Assembly: GCF_000152985.1 (NCBI RefSeq)
Contig: NZ_CH672395.1
Location: forward strand, 3,445,823-3,509,822
DNA length: 64,000 bases
From: Leeuwenhoekiella blandensis MED217
Lineage (GTDB): Bacteria; Bacteroidota; Bacteroidia; Flavobacteriales; Flavobacteriaceae
Reading direction: 5' to 3'
Shown here one piece after another: positions 15,999 through 37,502 of the stretch. A model generated the notes under the pieces. The model ran no database searches. It worked only from the letters and a program-made list of their open reading frames with translations, and was not told the origin of the DNA. Each line of letters starts with the position of its first letter. Within the stretch, counting starts at the first letter, position 1. The translations under genes were made by a program, and so were the position numbers.

Positions 15999-16034
15999 TA
16001 TATTTGTGCTGATATAACAAGTTGGCAATAATAT
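15999..16034 (+). promoter_or_regulatory. Promoter-like -7 box and head-of-array junction (attI-like)
   Basis: TATATTTG at 15999-16006 fits the -7 consensus. The -33 position is poor. Transcription starting near 16012 would read straight into the first unit, whose left boundary GTTGGCAATAA starts at 16021. The position is analogous to the cassette promoter and attI of integrons, but no integrase gene is adjacent. Confidence 0.4.
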
Positions 16035-16041
16035 GTAAAAA

Positions 16042-16647
16042 ATGGACCTAAAAAGAATAATTTTAATTCTGATATTACTTTCTAAAATTTCAACTTTTTC
16101 TCAAGAAAAATATGAATATAAGATTGGAAAAAAATGGAATGGAAATAGAGAAGTTTATTCAATTATTAAAGACGGTGATACAATTTTAAAATTAGATAGC
16201 TCAAAGTATTTAAATACACTTCAGAATAAATTTAACCATTTTGCAATTTTTGAAATAAAAGGAAAAGGCGGTTGGAGTGCAATTGACATTAATGAAAATT
16301 ACTTATTTCAGGTTTATAATAGATTGCAAGGAGAACCATTTCCTGACTATTTAAAAGAAAATCGAATTCGAATTGTAGGTGAAAATAATAAAATTGGATT
16401 TGCAAACTCTCTTGGAGAAATTATAATCAAACCACAATTTAAACGAGTAACAGAATTTGACAATGGATTTGCAATATTTCAATCCGAATGTGTCAAAATT
16501 AAGAACGACGAAAATAAAGGTGAACACCCAGGAGTTAGATATGAATGTGAAAAAATTGGATATATAGATAAAAATGGGAATATTATACAGATTGGAGATT
16601 TTGACTTTAACGAATTAAGACGCCGAATTAATTGGAATGGAAATTAA
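16042..16647 (+). CDS. Exported WG-repeat-like protein (cassette 1)
   Basis: 201 residues with a signal peptide (1-20). Two stretches look like WG repeats: KIGFANSLGEIIIKPQF followed by Val-Thr-Glu-Phe-Asp-Asn-Gly, and KIGYIDKNGNII. WG-repeat proteins form beta-propeller-like folds of unknown function. Base composition is far more AT-rich than the chromosome to the left. It is the single gene of the first unit (16021-16662), whose ends match each other over the 7-base arm exactly. Confidence 0.6.
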   Translation: MDLKRIILILILLSKISTFSQEKYEYKIGKKWNGNREVYSIIKDGDTILKLDSSKYLNTLQNKFNHFAIFEIKGKGGWSAIDINENYLFQVYNRLQGEPFPDYLKENRIRIVGENNKIGFANSLGEIIIKPQFKRVTEFDNGFAIFQSECVKIKNDENKGEHPGVRYECEKIGYIDKNGNIIQIGDFDFNELRRRINWNGN

Positions 16648-16651
16648 AATA

Positions 16652-16793
16652 CTATTGCCAACACCGGCTATAGTTCATTGCTACGGAATTTTCAACCGAA
16701 AATTCCACGCAAATTTGCTATATTAGTCGCTACGGCGGAAAATTCTACCGAATTTTCACGCAACGAAACCATAGCCAAACACGTTGTAAAACA
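16652..16793 (+). repeat. attC-like junction 1
   Basis: It begins with C-TATTGCC-AAC (16652-16662), the complement of its own unit start at 16021, and ends with GTT-GTAAAAC-A (16783-16793), the start of unit 2. In between, GGCTATAGTT pairs with AACCATAGCC, forming an imperfect inverted repeat over about 120 bp. Confidence 0.7.
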
Positions 16794-16807
16794 TTTACGA
16801 AAAACGA

Positions 16808-17587
16808 ATGAACAAAAATTTAACCTTCCTATTTCTGACTTTAATTTGCTTAACTGCATTTGGACAAAATGCATCGGAATTGAATGAACAAGCAAAAAAG
16901 CTAATAGAAACTCAAGAATTCGCAAAAGCAGTTCCGATTTTAAAACAAGCAGCGGAATTGGGAAATGCTGAATCTCAATATAATTTGGGTTATTGCTATA
17001 GAGCTGGTACTGGAATCGAACAAAATATTGAAAAAGGAATTTATTGGTTCTCAAAATCTGCTGAACAGGGATTTAATGATGGACTTTACCAAATGATGAT
17101 GGCTTATGGAAATGGAGATGGAGTTAAACAAGACTATAACAAAGCTTTTGAATTTGGTTTAAAATGTGCTGAAAATGGAGACGGAACTTGTATGTGGAAT
17201 GTGATTAATTGTTACTATTCTGGAATGGGAGTTGAAAAAAATATGGATAAAATGTTGGAATGGGCAACTCGTCTTGGAAAATTAGAAAATCCAGAAAATT
17301 TAACAAAAAGCGGATATATAACTTCTGTTCGTTTACAACTCGCACAAATGTATAGAGATGGAGGAGAATTGGAAAAAGACTTATTTAAAAGTTATCAATG
17401 GTTTTTGATATTTAATGAATTTAAAAAAGACTTCTCTTATATTAAACAACAACAGATTGTAAAAGAAATCGAAGAATTAGAAACGAAACTGACTTCAGAC
17501 CAAAAGGCTAATGGACAGAAAGAAGCTGAAAAATTATTGGGTAGACCATTAAAAAATATGGAAAATCTATACAAAGCTGAATTATAA
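16808..17587 (+). CDS. Exported Sel1-repeat protein (cassette 2)
   Basis: 259 residues, signal peptide in 1-18. Several Sel1/TPR-like repeats of about 36 residues follow (AESQYNLGYCYRAGTGIEQN, then EKGIYWFSKSAEQG, then YNKAFEFGLKCAENGDG). Sel1 proteins mediate protein contacts. It is the single gene of unit 2 (16783-17602). It is AT-rich, and its left and right unit arms match 7/7. Confidence 0.75.
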   Translation: MNKNLTFLFLTLICLTAFGQNASELNEQAKKLIETQEFAKAVPILKQAAELGNAESQYNLGYCYRAGTGIEQNIEKGIYWFSKSAEQGFNDGLYQMMMAYGNGDGVKQDYNKAFEFGLKCAENGDGTCMWNVINCYYSGMGVEKNMDKMLEWATRLGKLENPENLTKSGYITSVRLQLAQMYRDGGELEKDLFKSYQWFLIFNEFKKDFSYIKQQQIVKEIEELETKLTSDQKANGQKEAEKLLGRPLKNMENLYKAEL

Positions 17588-17591
17588 AAAA

Positions 17592-17731
17592 CGTTTTACA
17601 ACACCGTATATAATTTATTGCTAGTTCTAGCCTACTTACGAAAATCCTCGCGGATTTTCTATTCGGTTTTTATTTGCTAAATTAGGTACTTAAACCACGC
17701 AACAAACCATATACAAACACGTTAGCAAACA
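17592..17731 (+). repeat. attC-like junction 2
   Basis: It starts C-GTTTTAC-AAC (17592-17602) and ends GTT-AGCAAAC-A (17721-17731). The inner arms ACCGTATATAATTTATTGC and GCAACAAACCATATAC are inverted copies. The overall design equals that of junction 1. Confidence 0.7.
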
Positions 17732-17737
17732 TTTAAA

Positions 17738-18148
17738 ATGAAAATACCGTACAAAAAGAAAAGAGATTTTATTAGTTTAATTTCAGCGATTCTGTGGGGA
17801 ATCTACGCTGGATATGGATTTACGAAAGAATCACCTAACACTTTTGACTATTTAGCATTGATTTGTTCAGTAGGATACTTTTTATATTTCTTATTTGATA
17901 AAAAAATATATTATTTAACTATTCGCGATGGAATTATAAAAACTCGAAAAATATTCGGAAAGTCAATCCCTTTATCCAAAATAAAAAGAATCATTCTAAA
18001 TGACAATAAATATATACTGATAACGGACAAATCAGAAATACAAATTGACACTAAAATAATCGACTCTGAAACTCTAAATAAATTCAACGCTGAATTGGAA
18101 AAATTGAATGTTGAATGGAATAAAAAAACGTTTGCCAACAATGTATAA
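17738..18148 (+). CDS. Membrane protein with a PH-like soluble domain (cassette 3)
   Basis: 136 residues: two transmembrane helices (about 10-27 and 38-55) followed by a beta-rich domain (YYLTIRDGIIKTRKIFGKSI...) resembling bacterial PH (bPH) domains. The stop codon TAA is supplied by the following junction (GTATAA), so the unit end and gene end overlap. The function is unknown. Confidence 0.55.
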   Translation: MKIPYKKKRDFISLISAILWGIYAGYGFTKESPNTFDYLALICSVGYFLYFLFDKKIYYLTIRDGIIKTRKIFGKSIPLSKIKRIILNDNKYILITDKSEIQIDTKIIDSETLNKFNAELEKLNVEWNKKTFANNV

Positions 18149-18260
18149 CCGCAATTACGGCGGATTCGACTACGTCCGAATCCACTCGGAATTGCTAAAA
18201 CCTGTGCTAAACCGAAAATTAACGCTTACTAACCCGTAACTGACGGTTATACGAGACCGT
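18129..18260 (+). repeat. attC-like junction 3, left part, cut by IS1182
   Basis: It starts C-GTTTGCC-AAC (18129-18139; 6/7 to its own start at 17721). GTATAACCG near 18143 pairs with CGGTTATAC near 18243. The palindrome contains an inner hairpin ATTCGACTACGTCCGAAT. The IS1182 element enters after ACCGT at 18260, and the junction resumes at 21110. Confidence 0.65.
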
Positions 18261-19383
18261 CAGACTGTCTCAAAACTTAGGATATTTCATTTAAAAAGAT
18301 TAATTTCATGAATGGAATATCAACAAGGACAACCCCGCGAGCAACTTACCCTGTACACCACCTGTTTAGACGATATGATCCCTCAAGATAATAGTGTTCG
18401 TCTGATCGATCAATTTGTAAACCTATTAGATCTTCAAGCGCTGGGCTTTCAATCCAAAGCCTCACAGGGCAGACCTCCCTATGATCCTGCAGATTTATTG
18501 AAGCTTTACATTTACGGCTATATGAACCGGATGCGCTCTTCCCGCATCTTAGAAAAAGAATGCCTGCGCAATATCGAGGTCATCTGGTTGATCAAAAACC
18601 TACAGCCTGATCATAATACTATTGCCCGATTTAGAAAAGACAACCCAAAGGCTATTAAGCGCGTGTTCCGCCAGAGCGTGCAACTCGCACGTAACTTCAA
18701 CCTGATCGGGGCTACGCTCATCGCCGGTGATTCTACTAAGCTCAGAGCCCAAAACAGCAAGAAGAATAACTACAACAAAAAGAAGATACAGCGCCATCTG
18801 GATTACATTGATAAAAAACTCGAAGAACATAACCGGGAACTGGCTAATGCTGATGGAGATCACAAAGAAGAAGTACAACAGCAAATACACACCCGTAAAG
18901 CTCAACGTGTAAAATACCAGCAGATAAAAAACCAACTGGAGCAGGATACCTCTTCTCCCAATCCGCAACTATCGACCTCTGACCCTGACAGCAGACATCA
19001 AATTGTACGCGGGACCGTTACCGAAGTATGCTACACTGCACAAACCACCGTAGATGCTCAAAATAAAATCCTGATCGATTATAAACTCACCAACGCCAAT
19101 GATAAAAAAGCAATGGGCGGTATGCTCGCCAGAGCTAAAACCATCTTACGCACAACCCACTTCACCGCCCTTTATGACAAAGGGTATCACACCGGAAGTG
19201 AGTTTCATACAGCAGATCATTTAGGCATTGCTACCTTGGTTGCCATACCTGCTATTGGAAGAAAAAGTCAGGCACCAAACCCCAGATACAACGCAGAGTA
19301 TTTTAACTATAACTCAGATCCAGACACTTATACCTGTCCGCAGGGACATACACTAACTGTAAGCTTCCCCAGACTAGAACTGC

Positions 19384-20181
19384 TTAATCTTCCAAAACTG
19401 GTTTAAAATTATTGTTTTTCATTCTCTTGGGGCTAGCCCCAAGAGAATGGAGTTTTGCGTATTGCACTGGTGCTATTTTGCCCAGTGAGTCATGGGGACG
19501 ATATTTATTGTAATCTTCCATCCATATTTGAGTTTGTTCCCTTACCTGATCAATGTTTTCAAAGATATATTTATCTAGGACACCTCTGCGATAGGAGCCA
19601 TTAAAGCGTTCTACAAAAGCATTTTGAGTAGGTTTGCCTGGTTGTATGTATTTAAATTCAATTTCATGCATTTTACTCCATTCAGCAGTTAGGTTTGCTA
19701 TGAATTCAGGACCATTGTCCATCCTGATCCTATTTGGCTTACCTCGTCGGTTAATTAGGTGATTAAGTACCCAGACTACCCGATTACTGGTTAAAGAAAA
19801 GTCTACTTCAATATGTAGTGCCTCTCGATTAAAATCGTCTATTACGTTAAAAGATCTAAAACGTCTCTTGTTTTCTAGGACATCGCTTACGAAATCAATA
19901 CTCCAAGTATCATTCAATTCTTCAGGAATCTCCAAAGGCTCCTGTATACGCGCGGGCAGGCGCTTCTTTGCTTTTCTTCTTAAAGGAAGCCCTAAAGATA
20001 CATACACCCTGTGTACCCGCTTATGATTCCAAGGCTTTCCTTCGTTACGGATACGCCAGTAGGCTTTCCAGAAACCCTCTTCTGAATGTTCTTCTGCTTT
20101 GTCTCTAAGAGCTTGTTCTATAGGAGTATCATCCTTGGGTAAAGGTTTGTAATAATAAACACTTTTACTCATATTAAGCAC
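19384..20181 (-). CDS. IS3-A OrfB, DDE transposase
   Basis: 265 residues from the first in-frame ATG. It has the rve integrase core with the DDE residues in [20 protein letters not shown] and [14 protein letters not shown]. The frame stays open upstream to overlap OrfA, so the active product is presumably the OrfAB fusion made by -1 frameshifting at the A-run complementary to 20253-20260. Confidence 0.93.
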
Positions 20182-20246
20182 TCGGCACGCCCTACTGATG
20201 CCGTAGCGGATAAGTTCTTTAGCTATGGTGCGTTTACGGCAGGGCT

Positions 20247-20513
20247 TTAGAGCTTTTTTTCAATAATCTCTTTTGCCATTTGGTGGTCTAGTGCTAAAGA
20301 GGCATACATCTGCTTTAGACGGGCGTTTTCAGCTTCGAGCTCCTTAATACGCTTAAGTTCTTTGCTGCTCATACCAGCGTATTTAGAACGCCATTTATAA
20401 AAGGTAGAGGTACTGACACCGTATTCGCGGCTAATTTCTTCAACACTCTTACCGTTGTCGAACTCCTTTAAAATTTTTGCAATCTGTGTAGGTGTGAATT
20501 TGCTTCGTCTCAT
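20247..20513 (-). CDS. IS3-A OrfA, helix-turn-helix protein
   Basis: 88 residues with an N-terminal HTH ([20 protein letters not shown]...[19 protein letters not shown]) and a C-terminal leucine-zipper-like helix. It ends with Glu-Lys-Lys-Leu on an A-rich slippery sequence of the A_AAA_AAG type, the usual -1 frameshift signal of IS3 elements. Confidence 0.9.
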
Positions 20514-21122
20514 ACTGTTTAAAATTAAGAATTATTACACTTCTAAACAGTTCGGTTTGAAGGGAAGCTTACATAACCTCTAACGGGACCCAGTACAAAG
20601 CACGTAACTACACTTTTAAACAATACAAAACCAAAGCCTGCAAGACCTGTGTGGTGCGGGAGAACTGTACCACTTCAAAAGTCAATGGAAAAGTAATACA
20701 GCGCAGTCAGTACACCCAGAACATTCAGGATAATGCCAAACGTATTGCTCAAAGCGGTGAACTCTACAAAAGGCGGCAAGCACTAGTTGAGCATCCTTAC
20801 GGCACCATAAAGCGTCAATGGGGATTTAATCATATCTTGACCAAAAAAGGAATACAAGCTGCTTCAGCAGATTTAGGTCTTATGCTGCTAGCTTATAATC
20901 TTAAAAGACTGTTCAAGCTAAAAGTATCTCTTGAGGCAGCGATAAAACATAGTTTTTTAAGTGTTTTAAAGCTATTAGAGGGCTTAGAGAGGCTCAAACC
21001 TAAAGTATATCACCAAAATACCCAAAACACCTCATATGCAGTTTTTGTTGGATATCGCATACACTTCAACTACTTTTAAAACATAAAAAGGTAGTTTTGA
21101 GACAGACTGCCGTTAGGGTGCA

Positions 21123-21524
21123 TTAGTGCAAATCCCAATGTATCAACTTACCTTTAAAGTCTTTATCAAACCAATCAAAAAAATCGTTGGTTCTCGTAAA
21201 ACCATCATTTGCCGAAAGCATATCTACAGAAAAACTAGAAGATTTTAGTTTACAATCAAACCAAATAGCTTGTCCTAATAATTCATTATTCACAAACACA
21301 TTTGCTGTAGTTTTTCTATCCTCATATTTGTATTTAACTTCAAAAGGTTCAATTAAAGTACAAACACCATCGGCAAATTGGTTATAGGCTTTTGTTCTTA
21401 TGCCAGTAGCAAAATGTATTTTATTACCTACTTTCCAACGATTTTTTTTGTCCTCTCTAATAGTGTGTTTCTTACTACCAGCTTTTATCTTTTCTACAAA
21501 TTGTTTTTTAAATCCTAGTACCAT
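21123..21524 (-). CDS. ASCH-like domain protein, reversed in its cassette (cassette 4)
   Basis: 133 residues from the ATG complementary to 21522-21524; an upstream in-frame start at 21548 lies in the unit end and is unlikely. The N-terminus MVLGFKKQFVEKIKAG...HTIREDKK with Trp-Lys-Val-Gly-Asn and a following beta-barrel strand resembles ASCH/PUA-like domains that bind RNA or nucleotides. It is on the minus strand, unlike the other cassette genes. The unit is 21112-21546, and its arms AGGGTGC and GCACCCT match 7/7. Confidence 0.6.
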   Translation of the reverse strand: MVLGFKKQFVEKIKAGSKKHTIREDKKNRWKVGNKIHFATGIRTKAYNQFADGVCTLIEPFEVKYKYEDRKTTANVFVNNELLGQAIWFDCKLKSSSFSVDMLSANDGFTRTNDFFDWFDKDFKGKLIHWDLH

Positions 21525-21535
21525 TTTTAAAATAA

Positions 21536-21677
21536 CGCACCCTAACAAAGTATAAAAACAAAAGCCTGTTAAGGTGCTTAATTTTAAAGCTTTTGCGTGT
21601 TTATTAATACCATTTTGTTAACGCCAACAAAAAGGTCTATTTATGGCTTCAATTTTTATACAACACGTTGTAAGTAA
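21536..21677 (+). repeat. attC-like junction 4
   Basis: It starts C-GCACCCT-AAC (21536-21546) and ends GTT-GTAAGTA-A (21667-21677). AGTATAAAAA near 21550 pairs with TTTTTATAC near 21655. The orientation is the same as in the other junctions even though the gene of this unit is reversed. Confidence 0.7.
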
Positions 21678-21792
21678 TGCGAAAATCCAGCCACACAAAC
21701 AGCACATTTAGTTTTTCCCAACGCAAAACCCAACTCTGAAAAACTAAAAGAGCTGTGTCTTGCCAACGCTCGGGAAAATTCAATCGGAATTA

Positions 21793-21838
21793 TTTGTTTG
21801 CAAGAATTTGACAGACTATATTTGACACTTATTGTCAA
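21793..21838 (+). promoter_or_regulatory. Promoter with overlapping palindromic operator of the C-protein gene
   Basis: TTTG at 21793-21796, 20 bp, then TATATTTG at 21817-21824. The perfect palindrome TTGACA-N5-TGTCAA (21822-21838) overlaps and follows the -7 box, and a further TTTGACA half site lies at 21807-21813. Such duplicated half sites are expected for autoregulation by a restriction-modification controller protein. Confidence 0.6.
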
Positions 21839-21852
21839 GTTAAAATCTTCAA

Positions 21853-22161
21853 ATGGAAACAATCGGACAAATTTTACGAAACAAAAGACAAGAACTTGGA
21901 TTACTATTAAGACAAGTATCTGCCTATGTCGATATTGACCAAGCCATTTTGAGCAAAATTGAGCGAAACGAACGAAAACCAACCAAAGAAATGTTGGAAA
22001 AACTCGCTGAAATTTTAGAGCTCGATAAGAATGAACTTTTAGTACAATATATCAGCGACAAAATTGCGTACGAAATAGCAGATGAAGACTGTGCAAGCAA
22101 AGCTCTAAAAGTTGCGGAAAAGAAAATCAAATATTTAAAATCACAACCAGTCCAGAACTAA
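21853..22161 (+). CDS. XRE-family controller-like regulator (cassette 5)
   Basis: 102 residues with an N-terminal helix-turn-helix (IGQILRNKRQELGLLLRQVSAYVDID...LSKIERNERKP). It sits 2 bp before the DNA methyltransferase gene, and a palindrome overlaps its promoter, the classic arrangement of a C protein that times expression of a restriction-modification locus. It is somewhat longer than typical C proteins (about 80). It lies within a 3.3-kb unit (21667-25003). Confidence 0.8.
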   Translation: METIGQILRNKRQELGLLLRQVSAYVDIDQAILSKIERNERKPTKEMLEKLAEILELDKNELLVQYISDKIAYEIADEDCASKALKVAEKKIKYLKSQPVQN

Positions 22162-22163
22162 AT

Positions 22164-22958
22164 ATGCGAACACTTACAAAAGATATTGAAAATACAAATG
22201 TGATTGAGGAACCTCAATTAGCTGTCAAATTTTATCCAAAAAAGAAAGAAAGCACAGAAAAAGATAAATCCACTCTAAATATGCTATCGCTTTTTTCGGG
22301 TTGTGGTGGAATGGACTTGGGTTTTGAGGGACAGTTTTCTGTTTTAAAATCTTCAGTTAATGAAATTTTAAGCCCTAACTTTATCGAAAAGGAACTTGAA
22401 AACAACTTTGTTGAGCTAAAGAAAACACGGTTTAAAACTGTTTTTGCGAATGATATTCTCAAAGACGCAAGAAACGCTTGGGTACATTACTTTGCTAAAA
22501 GAGGACACAACGCAGAGGATTTTCAAACGGACAGTATCGTGGATTTAGTTAAACTACACCAAAGTGGCACAAATGTATTTCCTAAAGATATTGACATTGT
22601 AACAGGTGGATTTCCTTGTCAAGACTTTAGCGTAGCAGGAAAAAGAAAAGGTTTCAACTCTCACAAAAACCACAAGGGAGAACTTAACACAAAAACTTGT
22701 GCCACAGAAGAAACCCGAGGGAAACTCTATATGTGGATGAAACAAGTAATTGAAATTACTCAACCTAAAATATTTGTTGCTGAAAACGTAAAAGGTTTAG
22801 TAAATCTCTCTAATGTTAAAGACATCATCCAAAGTGATTTTTCGAGTATTGGAGATAATGGATATTTGGGCGTTACCCTATCGGGTCGGGCTATCTGTTA
22901 CAAGTCCTCGCTCGTTCCTCGCTGTGGGCTTTCCACTTCTATCCCTAACGCAGCTTAA
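22164..22958 (+). pseudogene. C5-cytosine DNA methyltransferase, truncated at the C-terminus
   Basis: Motif I (LFSGCGGMDLGF, residues 43-54), motif IV with the catalytic Cys152 (GGFPCQDFSVAGKRKGF) and motif VI (FVAENVKGL) are present. After Tyr234 the sequence abruptly becomes LGVTLSGRAICYKSS..., the translation of an unrelated palindromic element (22868-22951). The target recognition region and motifs VIII-X are missing, so activity is very unlikely. About 100-150 residues are lost compared with the family. Confidence 0.88.
22868..22951 (+). repeat. GGGCGTTACCC...CCCTAACGC element
   Basis: An 84-bp GC-richer element with GCGTTA at one end and TAACGC at the other. It marks the breakpoint where the methyltransferase gene stops and a foreign segment with an HNH nuclease begins. 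I recall similar GGGCGTTACCC sequences as dispersed intergenic elements in Bacteroidota; I cannot search for this. It may be another class of cassette junction. Confidence 0.55.
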
Positions 22959-22968
22959 CAACATAAAA

Positions 22969-23124
22969 ATGGATTTAGATTTAATACAAGATGCATTGGA
23001 AAGTAGTTTGTCATTATTAAATGATGAATTTGAGAGCATTGAACTTGATGAATTAAAAAAAGAGTACTTATTGACCATTCAAAAAATTGAAACGGCTTTA
23101 ACTTCCTTAAAAGAAAATGGGTAG
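22969..23124 (+). CDS. Small acidic helical protein upstream of HNH nuclease
   Basis: 51 residues starting 17 bp after the palindromic element. It is acidic and helix-rich (LIQDALESSLSLLNDEF...). It overlaps the HNH gene by 8 bp and so is coupled to it. It may be a partner or inhibitor of the nuclease; this is inferred from context only. Confidence 0.5.
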   Translation: MDLDLIQDALESSLSLLNDEFESIELDELKKEYLLTIQKIETALTSLKENG

Positions 23125-23896
23125 AAGACTTTGGACAAGGGAAGAGTTTATGCTTGTAATGAATTTGTATACCAAAATTCGTTATGGACAATTCAACAAT
23201 AGAAATTCTGAAGTCATCAAATTAGCTGAACTAATTGGTAAAACACCAGGCGCTGTAGCTTATAAATTAGTTCATCTTTCCAGTCAAGACCCATATCACC
23301 AAAATCGAGGTATAAAAGGATTGGCAAATCCTGGCAAAAATGCAATTGAGATTTATAAAGAATTTCAAGATAATTGGGACGAAATGCTTTACCAAAGTGA
23401 AGTTCTTCTTGCTAAATACAAAAACAAAACTATCGAACAGGAATATTCAGGATGGGAAGATGCTGATTTGGATATTTTAAAGAGCAAAAAGGGTTTAGAT
23501 AAAGAGAGATGGGTAAAAACACGAGTGAACCAGTCATTGTTCAGAAAAATAACCTTAAATAATTATTCCAATTCTTGTGCTATCTGTGGTCTCAATATTG
23601 ACGGACTATTAGTAGCAAGTCATATTTTGAAGTGGTCTGAAAATCAAAATGAAAGGCTGAATCCTGAAAACGGTTTATGCCTTTCAAGTATTCACGATAA
23701 AGCCTTTGAGCTGGGTTATATTGGTATTACAGGAGATTATATAATTAAAATTTCAGAAGAATTAGCAACTGTTTCAGAAGAAACTTATGTTGCAATGTTT
23801 AGCAGGCATCAAAATCAAAAGATAATTATGCCTGATAAATTTTATCCAAATCCCACATTTTTGGATAGTCACTTTCAATCTACTTTCCGAAAGTAA
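23117..23896 (+). CDS. HNH endonuclease, restriction-type
   Basis: 259 residues. The N-terminal part (1-100) is a helical DNA-binding-like region seen in restriction-type HNH proteins. The C-terminal HNH domain has Cys154-x-x-Cys157, ASHIL with His169, NPENGLCL and the SIHDKAF helix (His193). It was brought in with the 22868 element and now sits between the two halves of an older restriction-modification locus. It probably cuts DNA; no cognate methyltransferase is intact here. Confidence 0.75.
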   Translation: MGRRLWTREEFMLVMNLYTKIRYGQFNNRNSEVIKLAELIGKTPGAVAYKLVHLSSQDPYHQNRGIKGLANPGKNAIEIYKEFQDNWDEMLYQSEVLLAKYKNKTIEQEYSGWEDADLDILKSKKGLDKERWVKTRVNQSLFRKITLNNYSNSCAICGLNIDGLLVASHILKWSENQNERLNPENGLCLSSIHDKAFELGYIGITGDYIIKISEELATVSEETYVAMFSRHQNQKIIMPDKFYPNPTFLDSHFQSTFRK

Positions 23897-23971
23897 TTAC
23901 ACGCAAAGAAATCACCAGCTACAATAGAAAAGCTAAAAGGCAACAGGCTTGAACCTTACACAAGAGATGTA

Positions 23972-28941: not shown

Positions 28942-29167
28942 CTGCAGGCAACAATGTATCCTATGAAAAGCCCTAGTCCAGTTCTTTAAAGTTAATATTT
29001 TATTTTTAATTACCTCATAATGTTGATTTTGGGGTGTTGAATCGTTGATAATTCCGATAGGATTATCAATCATTCAATACCTATATAACTTGCTCGGCAT
29101 TACTGAAACAAGTTCAGCACAGGCTCTATATGTGATACGCGCATCTTAGCGGTTCACCAGTACTCGT
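28942..29167 (+). repeat. attC-like junction 7 and unassigned intergenic sequence
   Basis: C-TGCAGGC-AAC at 28942-28952 closes unit 7. The other half of the palindrome is not clear, and the stretch to 29167 contains no gene. It includes a near-palindrome TTGATAATTCC / GGATTATCAA (29041-29069), the same TTGATTATC-type core repeated at the head of the island. Confidence 0.45.
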
Positions 29168-29321: not shown

Positions 29322-29348
29322 GTTGTGCGTCATTTTAAAAACCAAATC

Positions 29349-29783: not shown

Positions 29784-29788
29784 AAAAA

Positions 29789-29829
29789 CGAACGCACAAC
29801 GACGTGTTACACAAAAACGTTGTGTGCAA
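29789..29829 (+). repeat. Minimal attC-like junction 8
   Basis: The unit end AACGCAC-AAC (29791-29800) and the next unit start GTT-GTGTGCA-A (29819-29829) are separated by only 18 bp containing GTGTTACAC, itself a palindrome. It is among the shortest junctions in the array. Confidence 0.6.
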
Positions 29830-29837
29830 TACCTGAA

Positions 29838-30143
29838 ATGAAAATCGTTCAAACTACAATAATCACAATTCTATTGCTGTTTCTGACTATATTTTTGGCT
29901 GGAGGAGGCCACGGAACTTATATTCCTGCGAAACTGATTTACCCTTTCACAATGTTAATTGCGGAATTCAAAAACGAAATCGGAATTGTTGGAATTTTAA
30001 TAGCAATCATACAGATTCCAACTTATGCTCTGATTCTGAATAACAAACCGAACTGGAAATATTACTTACTCGGAATTCATTGCATTGCGGTAATTATTGG
30101 ATTATACATTGGACTTGCAACAAAAAACTGGACTTTAAGTTGA
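29838..30143 (+). CDS. Small membrane protein, C-terminus altered by IS3-B insertion (cassette 9)
   Basis: 101 residues as now read: three or four hydrophobic helices (about 4-22, 30-45, 48-67 and 80-96). IS3-B copy 2 entered at 30110. Removing it and one CAT duplication restores an ending Asn-Asn-Gly-Ser-Phe-stop at 31416-31418, whereas the present frame ends GLATKNWTLS inside the element. Only the last five residues are changed, so the protein may still work. Confidence 0.6.
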   Translation: MKIVQTTIITILLLFLTIFLAGGGHGTYIPAKLIYPFTMLIAEFKNEIGIVGILIAIIQIPTYALILNNKPNWKYYLLGIHCIAVIIGLYIGLATKNWTLS

Positions 30144-30147
30144 GTGA

Positions 30148-31002
30148 CTATGCTGCTAGTTTTTGATTATACATATCTATTTCAAATTCTTTAATAGTTC
30201 TGTTTCCTAAGTAGGAATGTCTTCTTCTGGTATTGTACCAGGTTTCTATCCACTGAAAGATAGATAACTCTGCCTGTGATTTAAGCTTGTATTTATGCCA
30301 ATATACCCATTCTACTTTCAGAGATTTAAAAAAGGATTCAGCTACGGCATTGTCCCAGCAATTACCTTTTCTACTCATCGATTGTTTTACCAGGTCATTA
30401 TAGCTTTTAAGTAGATTAGTAAATCTTTGGCTGGCATATTGGATACCTTGGTCTGAATGGAATATCAAAGGTTGTGTTAGTGTGGTATTTTTAATAGCCA
30501 TCTGCCAAGCTTTTATAACAGTATCCTCAGTATTTAGGGTATCACTTAAAGCCCATCCTATAACTTTTCTATTGAATAGATCAATGATCACTGTTAGGTA
30601 ACTCCAACCCTGATTGGTCTGAACATAGGTAATATCGCTTACCCATACTTGATTAGCCCTGGCTACATTAAAGCATTGGTTCAACAAGTTTGGTGCTATG
30701 GGATATTTATGGTTACTATCGGTGGTGGCTTTAAACTTACGCTTCCTCTTAGCGTATAAATAGTTTGCCTTCATTATACGGGCTACCCGAGGCTTTGATA
30801 CCTTAAAGCCCAAAGCTTTCAATTCAGCCTTTATTCTAGGAGCTCCATAGCTTTGGTGACTATCTTCAAATATATCTTTGATTAATGAAGAGAGCTTCTG
30901 ATTTTCTTTCCAAAGGGTGCTAGGACCAGATTTCAACCAGTGGTAATAACCGCTTTTACTCACGGCTAACATAGTGCACATCTTCTCAACAGGAAATTTC
31001 AT
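30148..31002 (-). CDS. IS3-B OrfB, DDE transposase
   Basis: 284 residues, identical to the OrfB at 25447-26301, with the same DDE motifs and open upstream frame for fusion with OrfA. Confidence 0.93.
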   Translation of the reverse strand: MKFPVEKMCTMLAVSKSGYYHWLKSGPSTLWKENQKLSSLIKDIFEDSHQSYGAPRIKAELKALGFKVSKPRVARIMKANYLYAKRKRKFKATTDSNHKYPIAPNLLNQCFNVARANQVWVSDITYVQTNQGWSYLTVIIDLFNRKVIGWALSDTLNTEDTVIKAWQMAIKNTTLTQPLIFHSDQGIQYASQRFTNLLKSYNDLVKQSMSRKGNCWDNAVAESFFKSLKVEWVYWHKYKLKSQAELSIFQWIETWYNTRRRHSYLGNRTIKEFEIDMYNQKLAA

Positions 31003-31013
31003 ACGATGCTGTT

Positions 31014-31328
31014 TTATGAACCTGTATTTTTCTTGTCGCTCGCGGAGAAGATGCCAATCGCCTTTTTTAAGATATCACGTTCTAATTCGGCTTCTTTGAG
31101 CTGTTTCTTTAAACGGGCTATCTCTTTTTGTTGATCGGTCATTTTAGGGTTACCACGGCCGGGAAAACTATTTTTACCATAATTCTTTTGCTCTTTACGC
31201 CACCGGTAAAGAACAGCAGGTAAGATATCCAGGTCCTCACAAACCTGTGCTACACTGCCTTTGGCGTAACTTAATTCTACTGCTTTTTGCTTAAACTCTA
31301 AAGTGTAATGTTTGGCTTTACGTCTCAT
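31014..31328 (-). CDS. IS3-B OrfA
   Basis: 104 residues, identical to the OrfA at 26313-26627. Confidence 0.9.
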   Translation of the reverse strand: MRRKAKHYTLEFKQKAVELSYAKGSVAQVCEDLDILPAVLYRWRKEQKNYGKNSFPGRGNPKMTDQQKEIARLKKQLKEAELERDILKKAIGIFSASDKKNTGS

Positions 31329-31421
31329 GATTGCTAAGTTAACAACTTGCAATAATATTCATTCAACTCTATGTCCAGTCTAATGTAGTAATTCCACATT
31401 AACAACGGTTCATTCTAAAAT

Positions 31422-31646
31422 ATGTTTGGTTTTTTAATTATATCATTCTTTATACTTTTTTTCGGAGCTTTTATCTATTTTGGTTATTATCAAGATTATA
31501 AAAGAAATCCGAAAGAATTTATTAGAAGTATTATCGGAATGCCAATTGGACTTTTAGCAAGTTTTTTCGGACTCAATTCAATTGATGAAAGACTTAAAAA
31601 ATGGGCAAATAACTCGGAATTGAAAAACAATGATCCTAAAAAATAA
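31422..31646 (+). CDS. Small membrane protein (cassette 9, second gene)
   Basis: 74 residues with one long N-terminal helix (3-24) followed by a basic loop and a second weakly hydrophobic helix (SIIGMPIGLLASFFGL). It starts 3 bp after the restored stop of the previous gene. Unit 9 has poorly matching arms (start 29819, end 31660), so this gene may originally have belonged to another unit. Confidence 0.5.
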   Translation: MFGFLIISFFILFFGAFIYFGYYQDYKRNPKEFIRSIIGMPIGLLASFFGLNSIDERLKKWANNSELKNNDPKK

Positions 31647-31649
31647 AAA

Positions 31650-31742
31650 CGTCAGCCAACACCGGTAACCGTTGCACAAGACTGTAAAACGCAATATTAT
31701 GAACATAAAAAAGCCGCTTTTAAGCGTTTTTTTTATGTTCAT
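31650..31742 (+). repeat. Minimal junction 9 followed by a 44-bp near-perfect palindrome
   Basis: C-GTCAGCC-AAC (31650-31660) is followed 10 bp later by GTT-GCACAAG-A (31671-31681), a new unit start with no gene behind it. At 31699-31742, ATGAACATAAAAAA pairs with TTTTTTATGTTCAT around an inner CGCTTTTAAGCG, a terminator-like hairpin. Confidence 0.6.
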
Positions 31743-31978: not shown

Positions 31979-32117
31979 GTTGTAAACAATTATGAAATCG
32001 AGATTCGTATTAATATTATTTCTAATTATTCCACTTTTTGGTATCGGACAGGGTTTTGAGCTGAAAAAACCAATTGTTGCGGAACTGAATGTGTAAGCTT
32101 CCCCAGACTAGAACTGC

Positions 32118-32915
32118 TTAATCTTCCAAAACTGGTTTAAAATTATTGTTTTTCATTCTCTTGGGGCTAGCCCCAAGAGAATGGAGTTTTGCGTATTGCA
32201 CTGGTGCTATTTTGCCCAGTGAGTCATGGGGACGATATTTATTGTAATCTTCCATCCATATTTGAGTTTGTTCCCTTACCTGATCAATGTTTTCAAAGAT
32301 ATATTTATCTAGGACACCTCTGCGATAGGAGCCATTAAAGCGTTCTACAAAAGCATTTTGAGTAGGTTTGCCTGGTTGTATGTATTTAAATTCAATTTCA
32401 TGCATTTTACTCCATTCAGCAGTTAGGTTTGCTATGAATTCAGGACCATTGTCCATCCTGATCCTATTTGGCTTACCTCGTCGGTTAATTAGGTGATTAA
32501 GTACCCAGACTACCCGATTACTGGTTAAAGAAAAGTCTACTTCAATATGTAGTGCCTCTCGATTAAAATCGTCTATTACGTTAAAAGATCTAAAACGTCT
32601 CTTGTTTTCTAGGACATCGCTTACGAAATCAATACTCCAAGTATCATTCAATTCTTCAGGAATCTCCAAAGGCTCCTGTATACGCGCGGGCAGGCGCTTC
32701 TTTGCTTTTCTTCTTAAAGGAAGCCCTAAAGATACATACACCCTGTGTACCCGCTTATGATTCCAAGGCTTTCCTTCGTTACGGATACGCCAGTAGGCTT
32801 TCCAGAAACCCTCTTCTGAATGTTCTTCTGCTTTGTCTCTAAGAGCTTGTTCTATAGGAGTATCATCCTTGGGTAAAGGTTTGTAATAATAAACACTTTT
32901 ACTCATATTAAGCAC
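32118..32915 (-). CDS. IS3-A OrfB, DDE transposase
   Basis: 265 residues, identical to the OrfB at 19384-20181. Fusion with OrfA by -1 frameshift is expected at 32987-32994. Confidence 0.93.
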
Positions 32916-32980
32916 TCGGCACGCCCTACTGATGCCGTAGCGGATAAGTTCTTTAGCTATGGTGCGTTTACGGCAGGGCT

Positions 32981-33247
32981 TTAGAGCTTTTTTTCAATAA
33001 TCTCTTTTGCCATTTGGTGGTCTAGTGCTAAAGAGGCATACATCTGCTTTAGACGGGCGTTTTCAGCTTCGAGCTCCTTAATACGCTTAAGTTCTTTGCT
33101 GCTCATACCAGCGTATTTAGAACGCCATTTATAAAAGGTAGAGGTACTGACACCGTATTCGCGGCTAATTTCTTCAACACTCTTACCGTTGTCGAACTCC
33201 TTTAAAATTTTTGCAATCTGTGTAGGTGTGAATTTGCTTCGTCTCAT
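32981..33247 (-). CDS. IS3-A OrfA, helix-turn-helix protein
   Basis: 88 residues, identical to the OrfA at 20247-20513, with the same slippery 3' end. Confidence 0.9.
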
Positions 33248-33718
33248 ACTGTTTAAAATTAAGAATTATTACACTTCTAAACAGTTCGGTTTGAAGGGAA
33301 GCTTACAAATGCGGAATTGAAAAAAACGAACTACTCACAGGATGTGACTTACTTATATCTAATTCGGAATTATAAAGCGGAATCTGAAAAATTGGATATT
33401 AAAAAATATGATTATCCTGATTACAATATTTGTGCATTTAAACAAAAATTTGAACATGGAATTGTTTACTCGGAAGAACAGTGTAGAGAAGCAGGTGGAA
33501 TAATAACAAAACTGATTTTACCGAAAACCGACAAAGAAAGCTTAAACCAATGGGTTGAATTAATTTTTAAAAGTTCGCCAATGGACATAGAACACGGATG
33601 GAATTCAGAGAAAACCAAATTTGGTCCGACTGACGATGGTGTTGGATGCTACTTTGAAATTAAGGAAACTGAAAACAATACTGAAATTGAAATGTATTGC
33701 GGTTGTTAAATTGGATTT

Positions 33719-33871
33719 ATGGTATTTACTAAAGAAACAAAGGACAACGAATTTTACGTGTATATGAATGGAAAGCTGATTTACAAAAGATGGTTAAAAA
33801 CAGGTCAATCAAAAGTTTTTGACTTAATGGCTTATGACAAATACACAGAATATTCCTTAAATGATAATTAA
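33719..33871 (+). CDS. Small protein, second gene of cassette 10
   Basis: 50 residues (MVFTKETKDNEFYVYMNGKL...), starting 9 bp after the interrupted gene and ending just before the unit end at 33878. Soluble, beta-rich pattern. Codon use fits the array. It could be a separate small gene or a displaced C-terminal domain of the interrupted gene. Confidence 0.45.
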   Translation: MVFTKETKDNEFYVYMNGKLIYKRWLKTGQSKVFDLMAYDKYTEYSLNDN

Positions 33872-33877
33872 AAATAA

Positions 33878-33893
33878 CTATTTACAACACTAA
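33878..33893 (+). repeat. Minimal junction 10
   Basis: C-TATTTAC-AAC (33878-33888; 6/7 to the unit start at 31979), then ACTAATAACC and a GTTACACAA sequence. As in junctions 9, 12 and 13, the gap between AAC and the following GTT-like sequence is only 10 bp. Confidence 0.5.
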
Positions 33894-34055: not shown

Positions 34056-34076
34056 GTTACCTGCAAGCTGAAAAAA

Positions 34077-34481
34077 ATGAGTGAAGTCAAGATTGATGTT
34101 TATCACAAAGAAGAGAAAGTGACAACTACTCTTTACGTTGAACAGTTATCTGAAAATAGATTTCGGATGATTGACAATGACTTTTGCAACCCTAAACTGA
34201 CTTTGGGTACGGAATTTGAAACGAGAATTAACGAAGACCAAAAGCACGTGATAACAAAAATCACAAAGGAATCGGAATTTATTACTCGCAGATTTGGATT
34301 GACACCAAACCATAAAGAATCAGACTATCGAATGCTTGGGGAGGAATTGACAAAAAGAGGTGGGTTTTGGCAAGTTGACCTTGGGAGTATTGCCATTGTA
34401 AACATATCAAAAGATTTCGAATTTGACATCGACCAAGTCATCAAAGAATTAGATTTAAAACTGGTAGAAATAACCGAATGA
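34077..34481 (+). CDS. Hypothetical protein (cassette 11, first gene)
   Basis: 134 residues, soluble, no signal peptide, mixed alpha/beta (VTTTLYVEQLSENRFRMIDND...). Its stop overlaps the ATG of the next gene by 4 bp, so the two genes are translated together. Pairs of small overlapping soluble genes in accessory islands are often toxin-immunity or immunity-only modules, but I recognise no such domain here. Confidence 0.55.
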   Translation: MSEVKIDVYHKEEKVTTTLYVEQLSENRFRMIDNDFCNPKLTLGTEFETRINEDQKHVITKITKESEFITRRFGLTPNHKESDYRMLGEELTKRGGFWQVDLGSIAIVNISKDFEFDIDQVIKELDLKLVEITE

Positions 34482-34738
34482 AATACTTTAAACGAAATTG
34501 GAATGAAACCCGTGGAGACCAATATGACAGTTGGGGGAAATCAGTTTGGCTTTTCGAGACGGACAATAACGGAGAAGTTTTAAGACAAATTGAGATTTAT
34601 GACAATGGAAAAGTCTTAAAATATGATAACCAAAATATTGAGGACGAATTTGGAATGCTTGCCGACCAAAATATTGATTTGACCGAATTTAATGAGTTTA
34701 CAATAAAAAAAGAAGAGTTTGAAAATAAATGGAAATAA
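34478..34738 (+). CDS. DUF6881-like protein (cassette 11, second gene)
   Basis: 86 residues. The pattern YFKRNW...VWLFETDNNGEVLRQIEIYDNGKVLKYD...FTIKKEEFENKW resembles the DUF6881 family, which is frequently found next to polymorphic-toxin or immunity loci. It is translationally coupled to the upstream gene. The unit end follows at 34743-34753. Confidence 0.5.
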   Translation: MKYFKRNWNETRGDQYDSWGKSVWLFETDNNGEVLRQIEIYDNGKVLKYDNQNIEDEFGMLADQNIDLTEFNEFTIKKEEFENKWK

Positions 34739-34742
34739 AAGC

Positions 34743-34753
34743 CAGCGTACAAC
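34743..34753 (+). repeat. Unit end 11 (left half junction) abutting IS110
   Basis: C-AGCGTAC-AAC closes the unit. The rest of the junction is missing, because sequence belonging to the IS110 element starts within about 30 bp. The arm does not match the start at 34056, so this unit may be composite. Confidence 0.4.
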
Positions 34754-35747: not shown

Positions 35748-35965
35748 AACAATTAGATTTTGGAAAGGACGATCTACTTGGTGTTCAACAACTTTAAATC
35801 GAGGTTAGCGCCTCACAGAACTGATCGAAATCTAAGTAGAAAAGAGCAGTGATTATCAATGTTGACGGAATCTGAAGTTCCAACGGCTATAGTAACCTTA
35901 ACCTGCTCTTTTGTTCTTTCTGATTAATGCTATAATTTAAACAGAATCAAACTTAAGATGGCTAC
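35748..35965 (-). ncRNA. Candidate bridge-RNA region of the IS110 element
   Basis: The non-coding segment lies 5' of the transposase, where IS110-group elements encode the bridge (seek) RNA that guides target choice. A 10-bp perfect inverted repeat AAAAGAGCAG (35840-35849) / CTGCTCTTTT (35903-35912) encloses a smaller stem GGAA-N7-TTCC near 35868-35882. The RNA itself is inferred from position and structure only. Confidence 0.45.
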
Positions 35966-35977
35966 AATTTGACAGAA

Positions 35978-36406
35978 TTGCGAAAAATTAAATTTAATAA
36001 AAAACTCATATTAGTACTGACATTTATTTGCGGAATGATATCCTGTAATTCTTATAAAAATCTTCCACAATGACAATCAAATATCTCATTCCATTCTGCA
36101 TTCGAAAACGATACTTTGACTGTTAAAGTAAATGACAGTATACGCTTTAAAAATCATCGGATTGAAATGATTCCTGAATTGGGAATTTCTAAAAATGCAT
36201 CAATCTATGTAAAAGGAAAAGAGTTTCGAGTTTCTGGAACTTTTAAAACGATCGAAATAATTGACAAAGAGTTAGGTTTAAAAATTAATAGGACTTTAAA
36301 GTTTGACACAATTTTAAAAGCCAAAAACGGACGATATATTGACATTGGAGCGAATAATGAAAAAACACTAATCGAACAGCGAAAAAAAATAAGAATAGTT
36401 GAATAA
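35978..36406 (+). pseudogene. Lipoprotein gene with an internal TGA stop (cassette 12)
   Basis: From TTG 35978 the frame encodes a lipoprotein signal (KKLILVLTFICGMISC) and reaches TGA at 36071-36073. The same frame continues as NISFHSAFENDTLTVKVNDS to 36406. The continuous family-like reading on both sides indicates one nonsense change. The left boundary of its unit is missing next to IS110; the right end C-TAAGCAC-AAC is at 36411-36421. Confidence 0.7.
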
Positions 36407-36426
36407 AAAACTAAGCACAACATTGG

Positions 36427-36588
36427 TAACCGTTGCACAAGCTCTTAATTTCTAATAAAACCTATTTATTTAAACCTCAAGGACATCACCTAAAAACTTT
36501 AAACCCTTCATATGCAGTTTTTGTTGGATATCGCAGTCACTTCAACTACTTTTAAAACATAAACAGGTAGTTTTGTAGATCTACTGCT
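36427..36588 (+). repeat. IS1182-type right-end relic 4
   Basis: Follows relics 1 and 3 closely (CCTATTTATTTAAACCT...GACATCACCTAAAAACTTTAAACCC...GGTAGTTTTGTAGATCTACTGC). Followed by a CTGTT junction at 36587, where the other sites have CCGTT. Confidence 0.7.
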
Positions 36589-36605
36589 GTTGACAGCAAG
36601 TGAAA

Positions 36606-37289
36606 ATGACACACGTAATTCAAATATTTAAATCAGTCGAGAGAATTGAGAAGCTCGACTATTCGACCGAGTCTCGACAACTTCTTGACAAATGGGGAGA
36701 CAGTTTTGTTTCAAAGACAGGCTACTTGACAGACAGTACTTTGCTTCTTCCAATTAACAAGGAACAAGAGCCTGATCTAAAAACTGCTGACCTTGTAATT
36801 ATTCAAGACATTAACGGTTTTGACCCCTTCCTTGTCGAAAAGTCTTGGGACAAGACAAATTGGCCCAGTTGGTTTAAAAACAGCAGAAAAAACGATGTGC
36901 TATCTGCAAACCGACAGCTTATATGTTTCAACCGACTTTTAAGAAAAGGGACTTTTGAAATATTCAAAATAGAGAAAAATGAGTCTGGAACATTTGACCT
37001 TCATTTGAACTATTCAGCCAACGAATTTCATATTGGTATTCCAAAGCGAGACGACCACAAAATAGCAGAACTTAAACTTGGTAAGCCTATTAGATACAAA
37101 GTGAATGGAAAATCAGATTTTACTATGACTGGGAGAAAACAACGGACTTTTGTAGAATACGATTACATATTTGAATATTTAGGCCAGGCAGACAAAATGG
37201 AATTCAGGGATTTGAACAAAATCGGAAAAACTAAGTCGATACCAACTGATAACTACAAACTCGTTGACGAGAGAAAAATATTAAAATAA
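36606..37289 (+). CDS. Hypothetical soluble protein (cassette 13)
   Basis: 227 residues from the ATG at 36606 (a GTG two codons earlier is also possible). No signal peptide or membrane helix. Contains ADLVIIQDINGFDPFLVEKSW and a C-terminal beta-rich part (RTFVEYDYIFEYLGQ). Family not recognised. The unit spans 36589-37305; its arms match only 4/7. Confidence 0.5.
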   Translation: MTHVIQIFKSVERIEKLDYSTESRQLLDKWGDSFVSKTGYLTDSTLLLPINKEQEPDLKTADLVIIQDINGFDPFLVEKSWDKTNWPSWFKNSRKNDVLSANRQLICFNRLLRKGTFEIFKIEKNESGTFDLHLNYSANEFHIGIPKRDDHKIAELKLGKPIRYKVNGKSDFTMTGRKQRTFVEYDYIFEYLGQADKMEFRDLNKIGKTKSIPTDNYKLVDERKILK

Positions 37290-37294
37290 TACAC

Positions 37295-37502
37295 CAGCAG
37301 CCAACACGGGTAAGCGTCGCACAAGTCCATAACTTCTAGAAGTGCCTAATTTTTTCAACCGCTTTTAAGCGGTTTTCTTTTTTCTACCATATAGATTTAG
37401 ACAGAATTCAGAACTCTTAAAACCGATTTATCGCTGTTTGTCAATCTGTTTTTCAGAAAAAAATAAAGCGCGCACTCCTGCTCCGCTTTTGGGTGGTCTT
37501 GA
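37295..37502 (+). repeat. Junction 13, hairpin and dispersed repeat B copy 2
   Basis: C-AGCAGCC-AAC at 37295-37305, then ACGGGTAAGC and GTCGCACAAG, a decayed GTTGCACAAG. A terminator-like hairpin AACCGCTTTTAAGCGGTT lies near 37360-37378. From 37385 the repeat shared with 31743-31860 follows. This is the last recognisable junction of the array. Confidence 0.5.

Follow-up and report, generated by a model that had tools for sequence, protein, structure and literature searches.

The genome of Leeuwenhoekiella blandensis MED217 (Flavobacteriaceae), a single contig of 4,244,565 bases, contains a row of short, mostly one-gene units whose two ends are complementary to each other, and the question raised by this locus is which recombination system has built it. 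The stretch analysed, called here the window, comprises 64,000 nucleotides (contig NZ_CH672395.1, positions 3,445,823 to 3,509,822 of the forward strand), and the units occupy its positions 16021 to 37305. An earlier note, made from the letters of this stretch alone, had read them as cassettes which follow the logic of the folded attC site of integrons, in a system perhaps lacking an integrase. The first half of that reading is supported by the analysis described here and the second is not: the window very probably carries a cassette array of the integron type that has lost its own integrase gene by deletion, in which an attI-like site was left, and whose sites are recombined by a tyrosine recombinase without the I2 region, the additional domain of the integron integrase IntI. 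Features of classical integrons, where no control or cited paper stands behind them, are used below as general background.

Each unit starts with GTT-N7-A and ends with C-N7'-AAC, where N7' is the reverse complement of the N7 of the same unit. When the arms of all 12 units of the window were re-read, the match counts of the earlier note were reproduced: 7/7 in the units starting at 16021, 16783, 21112, 21667, 25123, and 28487; 6/7 in those at 17721, 29322, and 31979; and 4/7, 3/7, and 2/7 in those at 36589, 29819, and 34056, respectively. The arm can be extended to a start GTT-N7-A-N3 and an end N3'-C-N7'-AAC, i.e., 9-10 base pairs, a fixed A/C step which is a G.T step on the bottom strand, and 3 base pairs more, and these last three are completely kept in two units with poor N7 arms (34056 and 36589). 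The pairing is with the own unit and not with the neighbour, as had been claimed, since in the 12 × 12 matrix of starts and ends no start matches a foreign end at 7/7 and two do so at 6/7 (21667 with the end of 31979 and 34056 with the end of 28487). When positions 15901-38000 were shuffled 100 times with dinucleotides preserved, the mean number of 7/7 pairs was 0.26 and the maximum 2, against six observed; for pairs that reach 6/7 or more and a full 3/3 past the A, the mean was 0.10 and the maximum 1, against eight observed. The rest of the window outside the array holds no 7/7 pair and a single minus-strand pair of the latter type, so neither shuffled nor outside sequence is equally rich in 7/7 pairs; the reversed, complemented, and direct control rules gave 1, 0, and 0 pairs on the plus strand against the eight real ones. 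The complementarity of start and end within the unit, far above chance, is thus confirmed. The failed pairs 29819/31660 and 34056/34753 look like cassettes hit by insertion sequences, or hybrids.

The bases in front of the first unit bear on the absence of an integrase gene. Positions 15924-16020 of the plus strand, which end with GATATAACAA before the GTT of unit 1, match the 3' end of an integrase gene together with the attI-like site as found in an intact platform elsewhere in the genome (91% over 99 bases), and the 107 bases farther upstream at 15755-15861 match the segment that precedes this integrase gene (101/107 identical to positions 10691-10797 of locus L064, where the integrase open reading frame (ORF) starts at 10900). 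Between both matches the integrase gene is gone and 62 other bases stand instead (15862-15923, plus strand); an identical scar is found in a third platform of the genome at 2.241 Mb. To judge by this comparison, the integrase gene of the window is deleted, with its 3' end and upstream flank left behind. The segment of about 107 bases has one further copy in the genome (G000 C1:3855120-3855225) and others in congeners, in several places with no attI match alongside.

The intact platform encodes a 405-aa tyrosine recombinase (2.7559-2.7571 Mb), upstream of and co-oriented with its own array; the recombinase gene stops 30 bases short of the first cassette of this second array at 2,757,147 and lies 0.7 Mb from the window array. 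In this genome attI and the last codons of the integrase gene overlap, so that an attI beside the integrase gene, as known from canonical integrons, is present. The earlier note, which suggested looking for a tyrosine recombinase elsewhere in the genome, was therefore right that the window array has no integrase gene, but the system is not integrase-less. Five congeneric genomes contain ten attI copies, which agree with each other as far as the GTT (one with an extra A) and lead to ten different starts, all fitting GTT-N7-A; in five cases a cassette with a matching end follows, three in the genome of the window and two in genome G144, four of them by the arm rule and one (in G144) at 8/9 with a site of the covariance model R1, described below, behind it. 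In another genome of the family, G014, an integrase-less array shares the attI of the integrase-bearing array at 100/101 bases.

The loss of the gene leads to the question whether the window array is a dead remnant, its sites and attI being relics that recombine no more. The deleted integrase gene, the many insertion sequences, and the unmatched arms of several units are what such a remnant would display, and this reading is possible, if rather doubtful, because an intact integrase is present in the genome, attI is kept in three platforms with different first cassettes, and six of the first seven units keep arms of 7/7.

A pattern search of related genomes, also proposed in the earlier note, showed that the arm rule recurs there. 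Array borders in these genomes were set by pattern rules. On the minus strand of G014 lie two arrays, each some 48 kb long (about 2.215-2.263 and 2.745-2.794 Mb), in which matched units number in the dozens, and four stretches of three further genomes (L059, L060, L061, and L062) hold 7, 4, 2, and 7 matched pairs; among the 16 stretches examined, L053, L057, L058, and L063 contain no array and at most one pair each, for which chance is possible. In an arm-independent search spacers were found by their own ends, with 85-150 nt allowed and 117 nt preferred, and 195 of the 200 spacers obtained measured 117-125 nt, a uniformity partly built in by that preference. It yielded 138 bounded cassettes (62 from G014, none from the window), in 91 of which the own start agreed with the own end at 9/10 positions or better, while the start of the next unit agreed with that end in 5/138. 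Low scorers were often intervals long enough for two cassettes or had one extra base near position 10. At the distal arm positions 12-14 own agreement reached 81, 83, and 70% versus 58, 51, and 44% in shuffled pairs.

What moves as a unit is seen from duplicated cassettes. One 438-bp cassette of G014 occurs in 11 copies, alike from the own start CGTT through the gene and the 3' spacer to the next CGTT and different outside, and its right neighbours are nine different ones and, twice, another copy of itself; these borders assign the spacer to the preceding gene and place the crossover inside CGTT, which is also the arrangement of integrons. When 391 units were compared with each other, 196 pairs were obtained (3' side unmeasurable in 23); many of their alignments start at most 30 bases before the unit and stop 3 to 24 bases past the next G of GTT, and others extend into neighbours or similar spacers. 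Among the 45 of 100 inter-locus pairs listed, eight G014 cassettes recur at 98-100% identity in the other G014 array, with alignments that start 0-23 bases before the unit and end, in the seven of eight measured, 3-13 bases past the next G of GTT. These comparisons indicate that the cassette, a gene with its 3' attC, would move as one piece with the crossover at GTT, as in a canonical integron. The right-half pattern TATACNAANACGTT is present in 42/60 genomes and its reversed control is also common, with only some genomes standing out (G014 with 19 versus 5, G002 with 11 versus 3, and G044 with 11 versus 6); owing to the frequent control it was not used to count arrays. Similar sites were met on the Bacteroidota plasmids CP116298 and CP116296 (Tenacibaculum), NZ_CP092416 (Flagellimonas), which also encodes a related recombinase, and NZ_AP025294 (Persicobacter), so that mobile forms of the system may exist; none were found in phage records.

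The spacers have the anatomy of a folded site. In the 195 spacers the left position i pairs with the right position i+3, which leaves 3 versus 6 unpaired bases beside AAC/GTT; the excess of own over shuffled pairing is 0.26-0.54 at six position pairs, and one pair farther in (23 with 27) suggests a change of register. In 51 of the 64 listed sites a 16-bp L stem has 97.2% of its cells paired versus 78.1% in shuffled ones, 11 pairs with both sides changed versus 8.0, and a covariation score of 0.491 versus 0.141 in shuffled and at most 0.146 in slid controls. Steps other than Watson-Crick are one-sided in the L stem: 435 cells are G.T on the bottom strand and 15 on the top strand, and 446 make neither kind of pair. 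Closed-circle sites were analysed in 96 of the 138 cassettes, picked for good arms with position 11 being no criterion, and at this position a G.T step occurs on the bottom strand in 92/96 and on the top strand in 0/96. The closed-circle fold is steadier on the bottom strand in 94/96 with DNA parameters and in 96/96 with RNA parameters, the latter being partly built in, as RNA parameters favour G.U pairs. A bottom-strand hairpin with an unpaired central spacer, typical of canonical attC, is thus computed for these sites, whereas extrahelical bases are absent at the consensus level, all 16 columns of the L'' arm being paired in the stem of the 51/64 sites.

The imperfect palindromes which the earlier note saw between units were recovered by the covariance model R1 as full sites, six of them in the window and 25 in the arrays of its genome, each on the strand complementary to that of the cassettes; the training set of R1 includes three of the 25, two of these in the window, and R1 adds one weak top-strand echo there. 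Among 24 loci from other records it detected 55 sites in 15, again all on the strand opposite to the cassettes.

As a classical control, 34 units from 5 of 20 canonical IntI loci, in chains of at least five, were found by the 7-nt core, by which positions 1-7 match by construction. Their own-end agreement was 82% at position 8 (28% in shuffled pairs), 59% at position 9 (30%), 38% at position 10 (24%), and 35% at position 11 (34%). Because own-end agreement beyond the core is seen in this control, the R''/R' complementarity of the own cassette, found here in 91/138 versus 5/138, is itself classical, and the earlier claim of a longer-than-classical arm holds in its other part: the arm is even longer than noted, and the distal 3-bp helix behind the G.T step (positions 12-14), absent from the 34 control units, is new. 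This helix behind a conserved G.T step, the site pattern, and a recombinase without the I2 region are the new parts of the system.

Xer enzymes act on double strands, and the recombinase resembles XerA and XerC-like proteins, so a Xer-like recombinase could be thought to move the cassettes as double-stranded DNA via inverted repeats, with no hairpins involved. This is unlikely, since the arms vary from cassette to cassette and nevertheless complement each other when the circle is closed, covariation is seen in the L stem, and the G.T steps are divided 435 to 15 between the strands.

The recombinase of the intact platform has relatives in 92/199 genomes of the family (E ≤ 1e-60), including a 390-aa protein encoded immediately upstream of one G014 array. 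Downstream of 34/40 family recombinase loci at least one matched unit lies on the same strand, the first within 206 nt of the gene in 27 loci and at 552-1588 nt in 7; one of the 40 has a unit upstream and three have a unit on the other strand. In five of the six unit-less loci the contig ends at most 206 nt past the gene, and one locus (L101) has no unit. In two assemblies assigned to Bacillota and Spirochaetota (L191 and L215) I2-less recombinases accompany four and two arm-matched units on the opposite strand, whose arms, judged by eye, are longer (9 + 2 + 7 or 9). Downstream of the second array of the window's genome (L065, 9948-11290) a fragment of an IS91-type transposase stands beside a second Xer-like tyrosine recombinase of 280 aa.

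No IntI above the curated cut-off was detected in the genome of the window. Against the IntI model TIGR02249, with a cut-off of 265 bits, its recombinase and that of G014 scored 183 and 197 bits with the match in two pieces, and the I2 domain of IntI is not found in the linked recombinases. The distance from the KDR-type motif to HxLRH is 63-64 residues in 37/40 family proteins measured and 105 residues in 12/13 canonical IntI measured, and the missing residues, about 42, include I2, because the gap in the TIGR02249 match falls there. The motif-distance script returned 111-113 for five GTDB proteins with no arm-matched unit (L197, L201, L206, L213, and L214), of which L201 gives 72 by another motif rule. 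About 98-111 residues precede the SAM-like domain in the linked recombinases. The protein from the window's genome also falls below the XerC/XerD NCBIfam cut-offs (181.7 of 335 bits for TIGR02224 and 169.2 of 330 bits for TIGR02225), and its best PDB sequence matches are XerA and XerC-like, 5hxy and 4a8e. In a quick tree of 79 proteins the canonical IntI form one clade (support 100), joined by the two opposite-strand proteins at 92, and the array-linked Bacteroidota recombinases are scattered over several places; a single clade of array-linked recombinases, IntI, and the two opposite-strand proteins was rejected (p-AU 4.3e-5).

That the locus is a canonical integron, or a plain attC cluster, fed by an undetected IntI with I2 is very unlikely. 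The cassette logic and the crossover motif are alike, own-end complementarity exists in canonical arrays too, integrons or intI genes of Bacteroidota or of the Bacteroidetes/Chlorobi group appear in surveys, and a canonical IntI is encoded elsewhere in the Spirochaetota genome of L215, besides the I2-less one. All of this fits such an origin, but TIGR02249 at E ≤ 1e-70 found nothing in 199 family genomes (14 control genomes were empty too) versus 101/274 genomes of a gammaproteobacterial class sample at 1e-100, the linked recombinases stay far from the TIGR02249 cut-off, and R1 detected 0 sites in the 215,058 bases of 14 of the 20 canonical integron loci.

Insertion sequences have used the same crossover point. 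The 24-base end of an element which we take to be of the IS1182 type (names of insertion sequence families beyond the support of Pfam domains, and partly this one, are our assumption) occurs in ten copies in the genome: nine belong to the three arrays, where every one of them is preceded by GACCGT and begins precisely where an R1 site ends, and the tenth, outside the arrays, likewise follows CCGT. Nine intact right ends of the element are followed by CCGTT, and diverged right ends are seen at further junctions of the window. Stretches with the element at an attC-like crossover are 18261-21109 and 26856-28484 of the window, L277, L064, L278, and L065. The IS1111-attC group is likewise made up of insertion sequences aimed at attC, from which the present case differs in that the element is of the IS1182 type and sits at the crossover, flanked on either side by CCGT. 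That the junctions themselves are products of insertion sequences, the unit pattern being a by-product of their target choice, can practically be dismissed in spite of the elements that start exactly at the end of nine attC-like sites in three arrays, since 4/6 R1 sites of the window have no element at the crossover, 25 sites face nine elements in the arrays of the genome, and the element sits within a finished site (GACCGT on the left, CCGTT on the right).

Anatomy, complementarity, covariation, the borders of duplicated cassettes, attI conservation, the scar, and the linkage of recombinase and array, all of them comparative evidence, point to the following course of an integron-type system with an I2-less recombinase. 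The cassette would consist of one gene or a small operon and an attC-like spacer of about 121 nt. The crossover would take place inside the CGTT common to most attC-like sites (attI shares GTT), by which the gene and its downstream spacer would move together. In the excised circle the two ends of the cassette would pair and the bottom strand would fold to a hairpin with an R stem of 9-10 bp, a G.T step plus 3 outer bp, an unpaired spacer of 3 versus 6 nt, and an L stem of 16 bp, whose conserved G.T steps may favour the bottom over the top strand. The I2-less tyrosine recombinase of the intact platform would be the enzyme that recombines these sites, and it would serve the window array in trans. 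The identity of this protein as the enzyme, the bottom strand as its substrate, recombination itself, and present-day activity are all presumed in this course.

Several observations weigh against this interpretation. Arm-matched units stand downstream of related recombinases in 28/80 GTDB loci, or 24/61 of those with at least 1000 nt there; the 28 come from Flavobacteriaceae, Cyclobacteriaceae, Spirosomataceae, Hymenobacteraceae, Marinilabiliaceae, and further or unclassified Bacteroidota, with one weak case in Peptococcaceae. A single clade of all array-linked recombinases was rejected (p-AU 6.4e-5; short contigs make the labels incomplete). Four attI copies have no matching end within 6 kb and one more contig ends after 497 bases, and the copies with no matching cassette end slightly lower the confidence. 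R1 finds no site in the remaining 9 of the 24 loci from other records, L191 and L215 included, and the superiority of the own arm over that of the neighbour in 95/96 closed-circle sites is partly built in by the choice of good arms. In the window array itself 4/12 units fall short of 6/7 plus 3/3, and insertion sequences crowd it.

In the window the cassettes are given along the plus strand and the attC-like sites as bottom-strand hairpins of the minus strand. Cassette 1 (16021-16662, arms 7/7 + 3/3) encodes a WG-repeat protein and is followed by site 1 (16660-16785; R1 72.6 bits, E 7.9e-12), and cassette 2 (16783-17602, 7/7 + 3/3), with Sel1 repeats, by site 2 (17600-17723; 116.7 bits, member of the training set). 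Cassette 3 (17721-18139, 6/7 + 3/3) has no Pfam match, and at the end of its site 3 (18137-18261; 78.7 bits) starts an element on the plus strand (18261-21109), presumably IS1182-type from the Pfam match of its second copy, with CCGT at both sides, which is split by a second insertion sequence (about 19358-20573, a copy of that from 32092 on). Cassette 4 (21112-21546, 7/7 + 3/3), whose ORF lies on the minus strand with no Pfam match, is followed by site 4 (21544-21669; 65.0 bits, member of the training set).

The largest unit is cassette 5 (21667-25003, 7/7 + 3/3), with an HTH protein, a C5 methylase fragment, an HNH protein, and a 300-aa ORF with no assignment; it is probably a restriction-modification cassette. 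Its methylase ORF (22164-23896) stops early, after which a Flavo-1 RNA match below threshold (22880-22959, minus strand) and the ORF of the HNH protein follow, and an element may have been inserted into the gene. An Rfam scan of 14800-39000 gave sub-threshold matches only (Flavo-1 once and COG3860 twice), none of them attC-like. At site 5 (25001-25125; 72.4 bits) a weak top-strand match lies in the same place (E 0.02). Cassette 6 (25123-26734, 7/7 + 3/3) contains an IS3-type element (rve domain), and at the end of its site 6 (26732-26856; 76.1 bits) the second IS1182-type element (26856-28484) starts.

Cassette 7 (28487-28952, 7/7 + 3/3) shows a match to the TonB C-terminal domain. Between cassette 8 (29322-29800, 6/7) and unit 9 lies a junction of only 18 bases (29801-29818, plus strand), in which GTGT/ACAC arms with 3 and 6 unpaired bases are seen in the sequence and R1 has no match; it is perhaps a minimal attC. 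Unit 9 (29819-31660, 3/7) is damaged or composite and contains a copy of the IS3-type element, and cassette 10 (31979-33888, 6/7 + 3/3) includes the insertion sequence copied at 19358. Unit 11 (34056-34753, 2/7) and the last unit (36589-37305, 4/7) keep the distal 3/3.

The Vibrio cholerae superintegron is the type of the sedentary chromosomal integron with IntI, attI, and attC. The present system shares with such integrons the one-gene cassettes mostly in one orientation, attC after the gene, the crossover at GTT, the complementarity of the own R arms, the bottom-strand hairpin with an unpaired central spacer, and attI before the first cassette. It differs in its recombinase, which lacks the I2 region and has about 98-111 residues in front of the SAM-like domain; in a recombinase gene that lies upstream of the cassettes, is co-oriented with them, and, in the own clade, overlaps attI with its 3' end; and in the distal 3-bp helix behind the G.T step, with no unpaired base of the L'' arm in the 16-bp consensus stem. 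With XerA and XerC-like recombinases (PDB 5hxy and 4a8e) the core and catalytic domains are shared, but the linkage to cassette arrays and attI and the N-terminal addition are not. A CALIN is described in passages of PMC9024848 as a cluster of attC sites lacking an integrase. The window array, with six R1 sites and all TIGR02249 and PF00589 hits of the genome outside the window, corresponds to this description of at least two attC with no integrase gene nearby; unlike a CALIN it keeps attI and an integrase scar, and its sites are of another make.

I2-less relatives as such have already been noticed, since in PMC8138268, as far as its text was available, the catalytic-domain insertion is described as incompletely conserved within the integron-like tyrosine recombinase subgroup; that part of the text links such members neither to cassette arrays nor to attC sites. 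A further parallel comes from Riemerella anatipestifer, where, according to parts of PMC13148043, a gene with 27 bp of 5' and 140 bp of 3' sequence was integrated after transformation with no flanking homology, the 3' stretch of this aph(3')-IVb insertion being said to fold like attC. The short 5' and 140-bp 3' stretches, the homology-free integration, and the attC-like fold are alike, but the insertion, known here by description only, concerns a single gene, and no recombinase is named in those parts (PMC13148043). Integrons in Bacteroidota as such are known from surveys, as far as these were accessible, and in the accessible text of the IntegronFinder 2.0 survey one complete integron is named for Bacteroidetes, that of Salinibacter. 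Among the titles and the beginnings of abstracts returned by a literature search, in which preprints and subscription papers are poorly covered, none dealt with I2-less integrons or such Bacteroidota arrays, which is weak evidence of novelty. Parts of PMC8618304, PMC9668308, PMC2727003, PMC2426708, and PMC8352920 were also drawn on.

In sections of PMC7790495 cassette capture is considered to require the I2 helix, to which integrases would owe single-strand recombination, and direct proof is said to be unavailable since removal of I2 abolishes IntI1 function. Natural I2-less recombinases tied to hairpin cassettes, if true, would make the origin of single-strand cassette recombination directly testable. 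It seems fairly probable that Bacteroidota possess a large integron system of their own, with an I2-less recombinase acting on folded single-stranded attC and the strand chosen by G.T steps instead of extrahelical bases read by I2, and that IntI with I2 is a derived branch of a wider and older set; such an older I2-less set, if true, runs against the view that the gain of I2 created single-strand recombination. The system may also be the unnamed route in Riemerella, as far as the latter is described in the available parts of PMC13148043. Apparently, this is a widespread integron-like gene-capture system of Bacteroidota which has so far been overlooked, and if the interpretation is right, with a related recombinase in 92/199 genomes of the family, a large gene-exchange network of Bacteroidota would have been overlooked with it.

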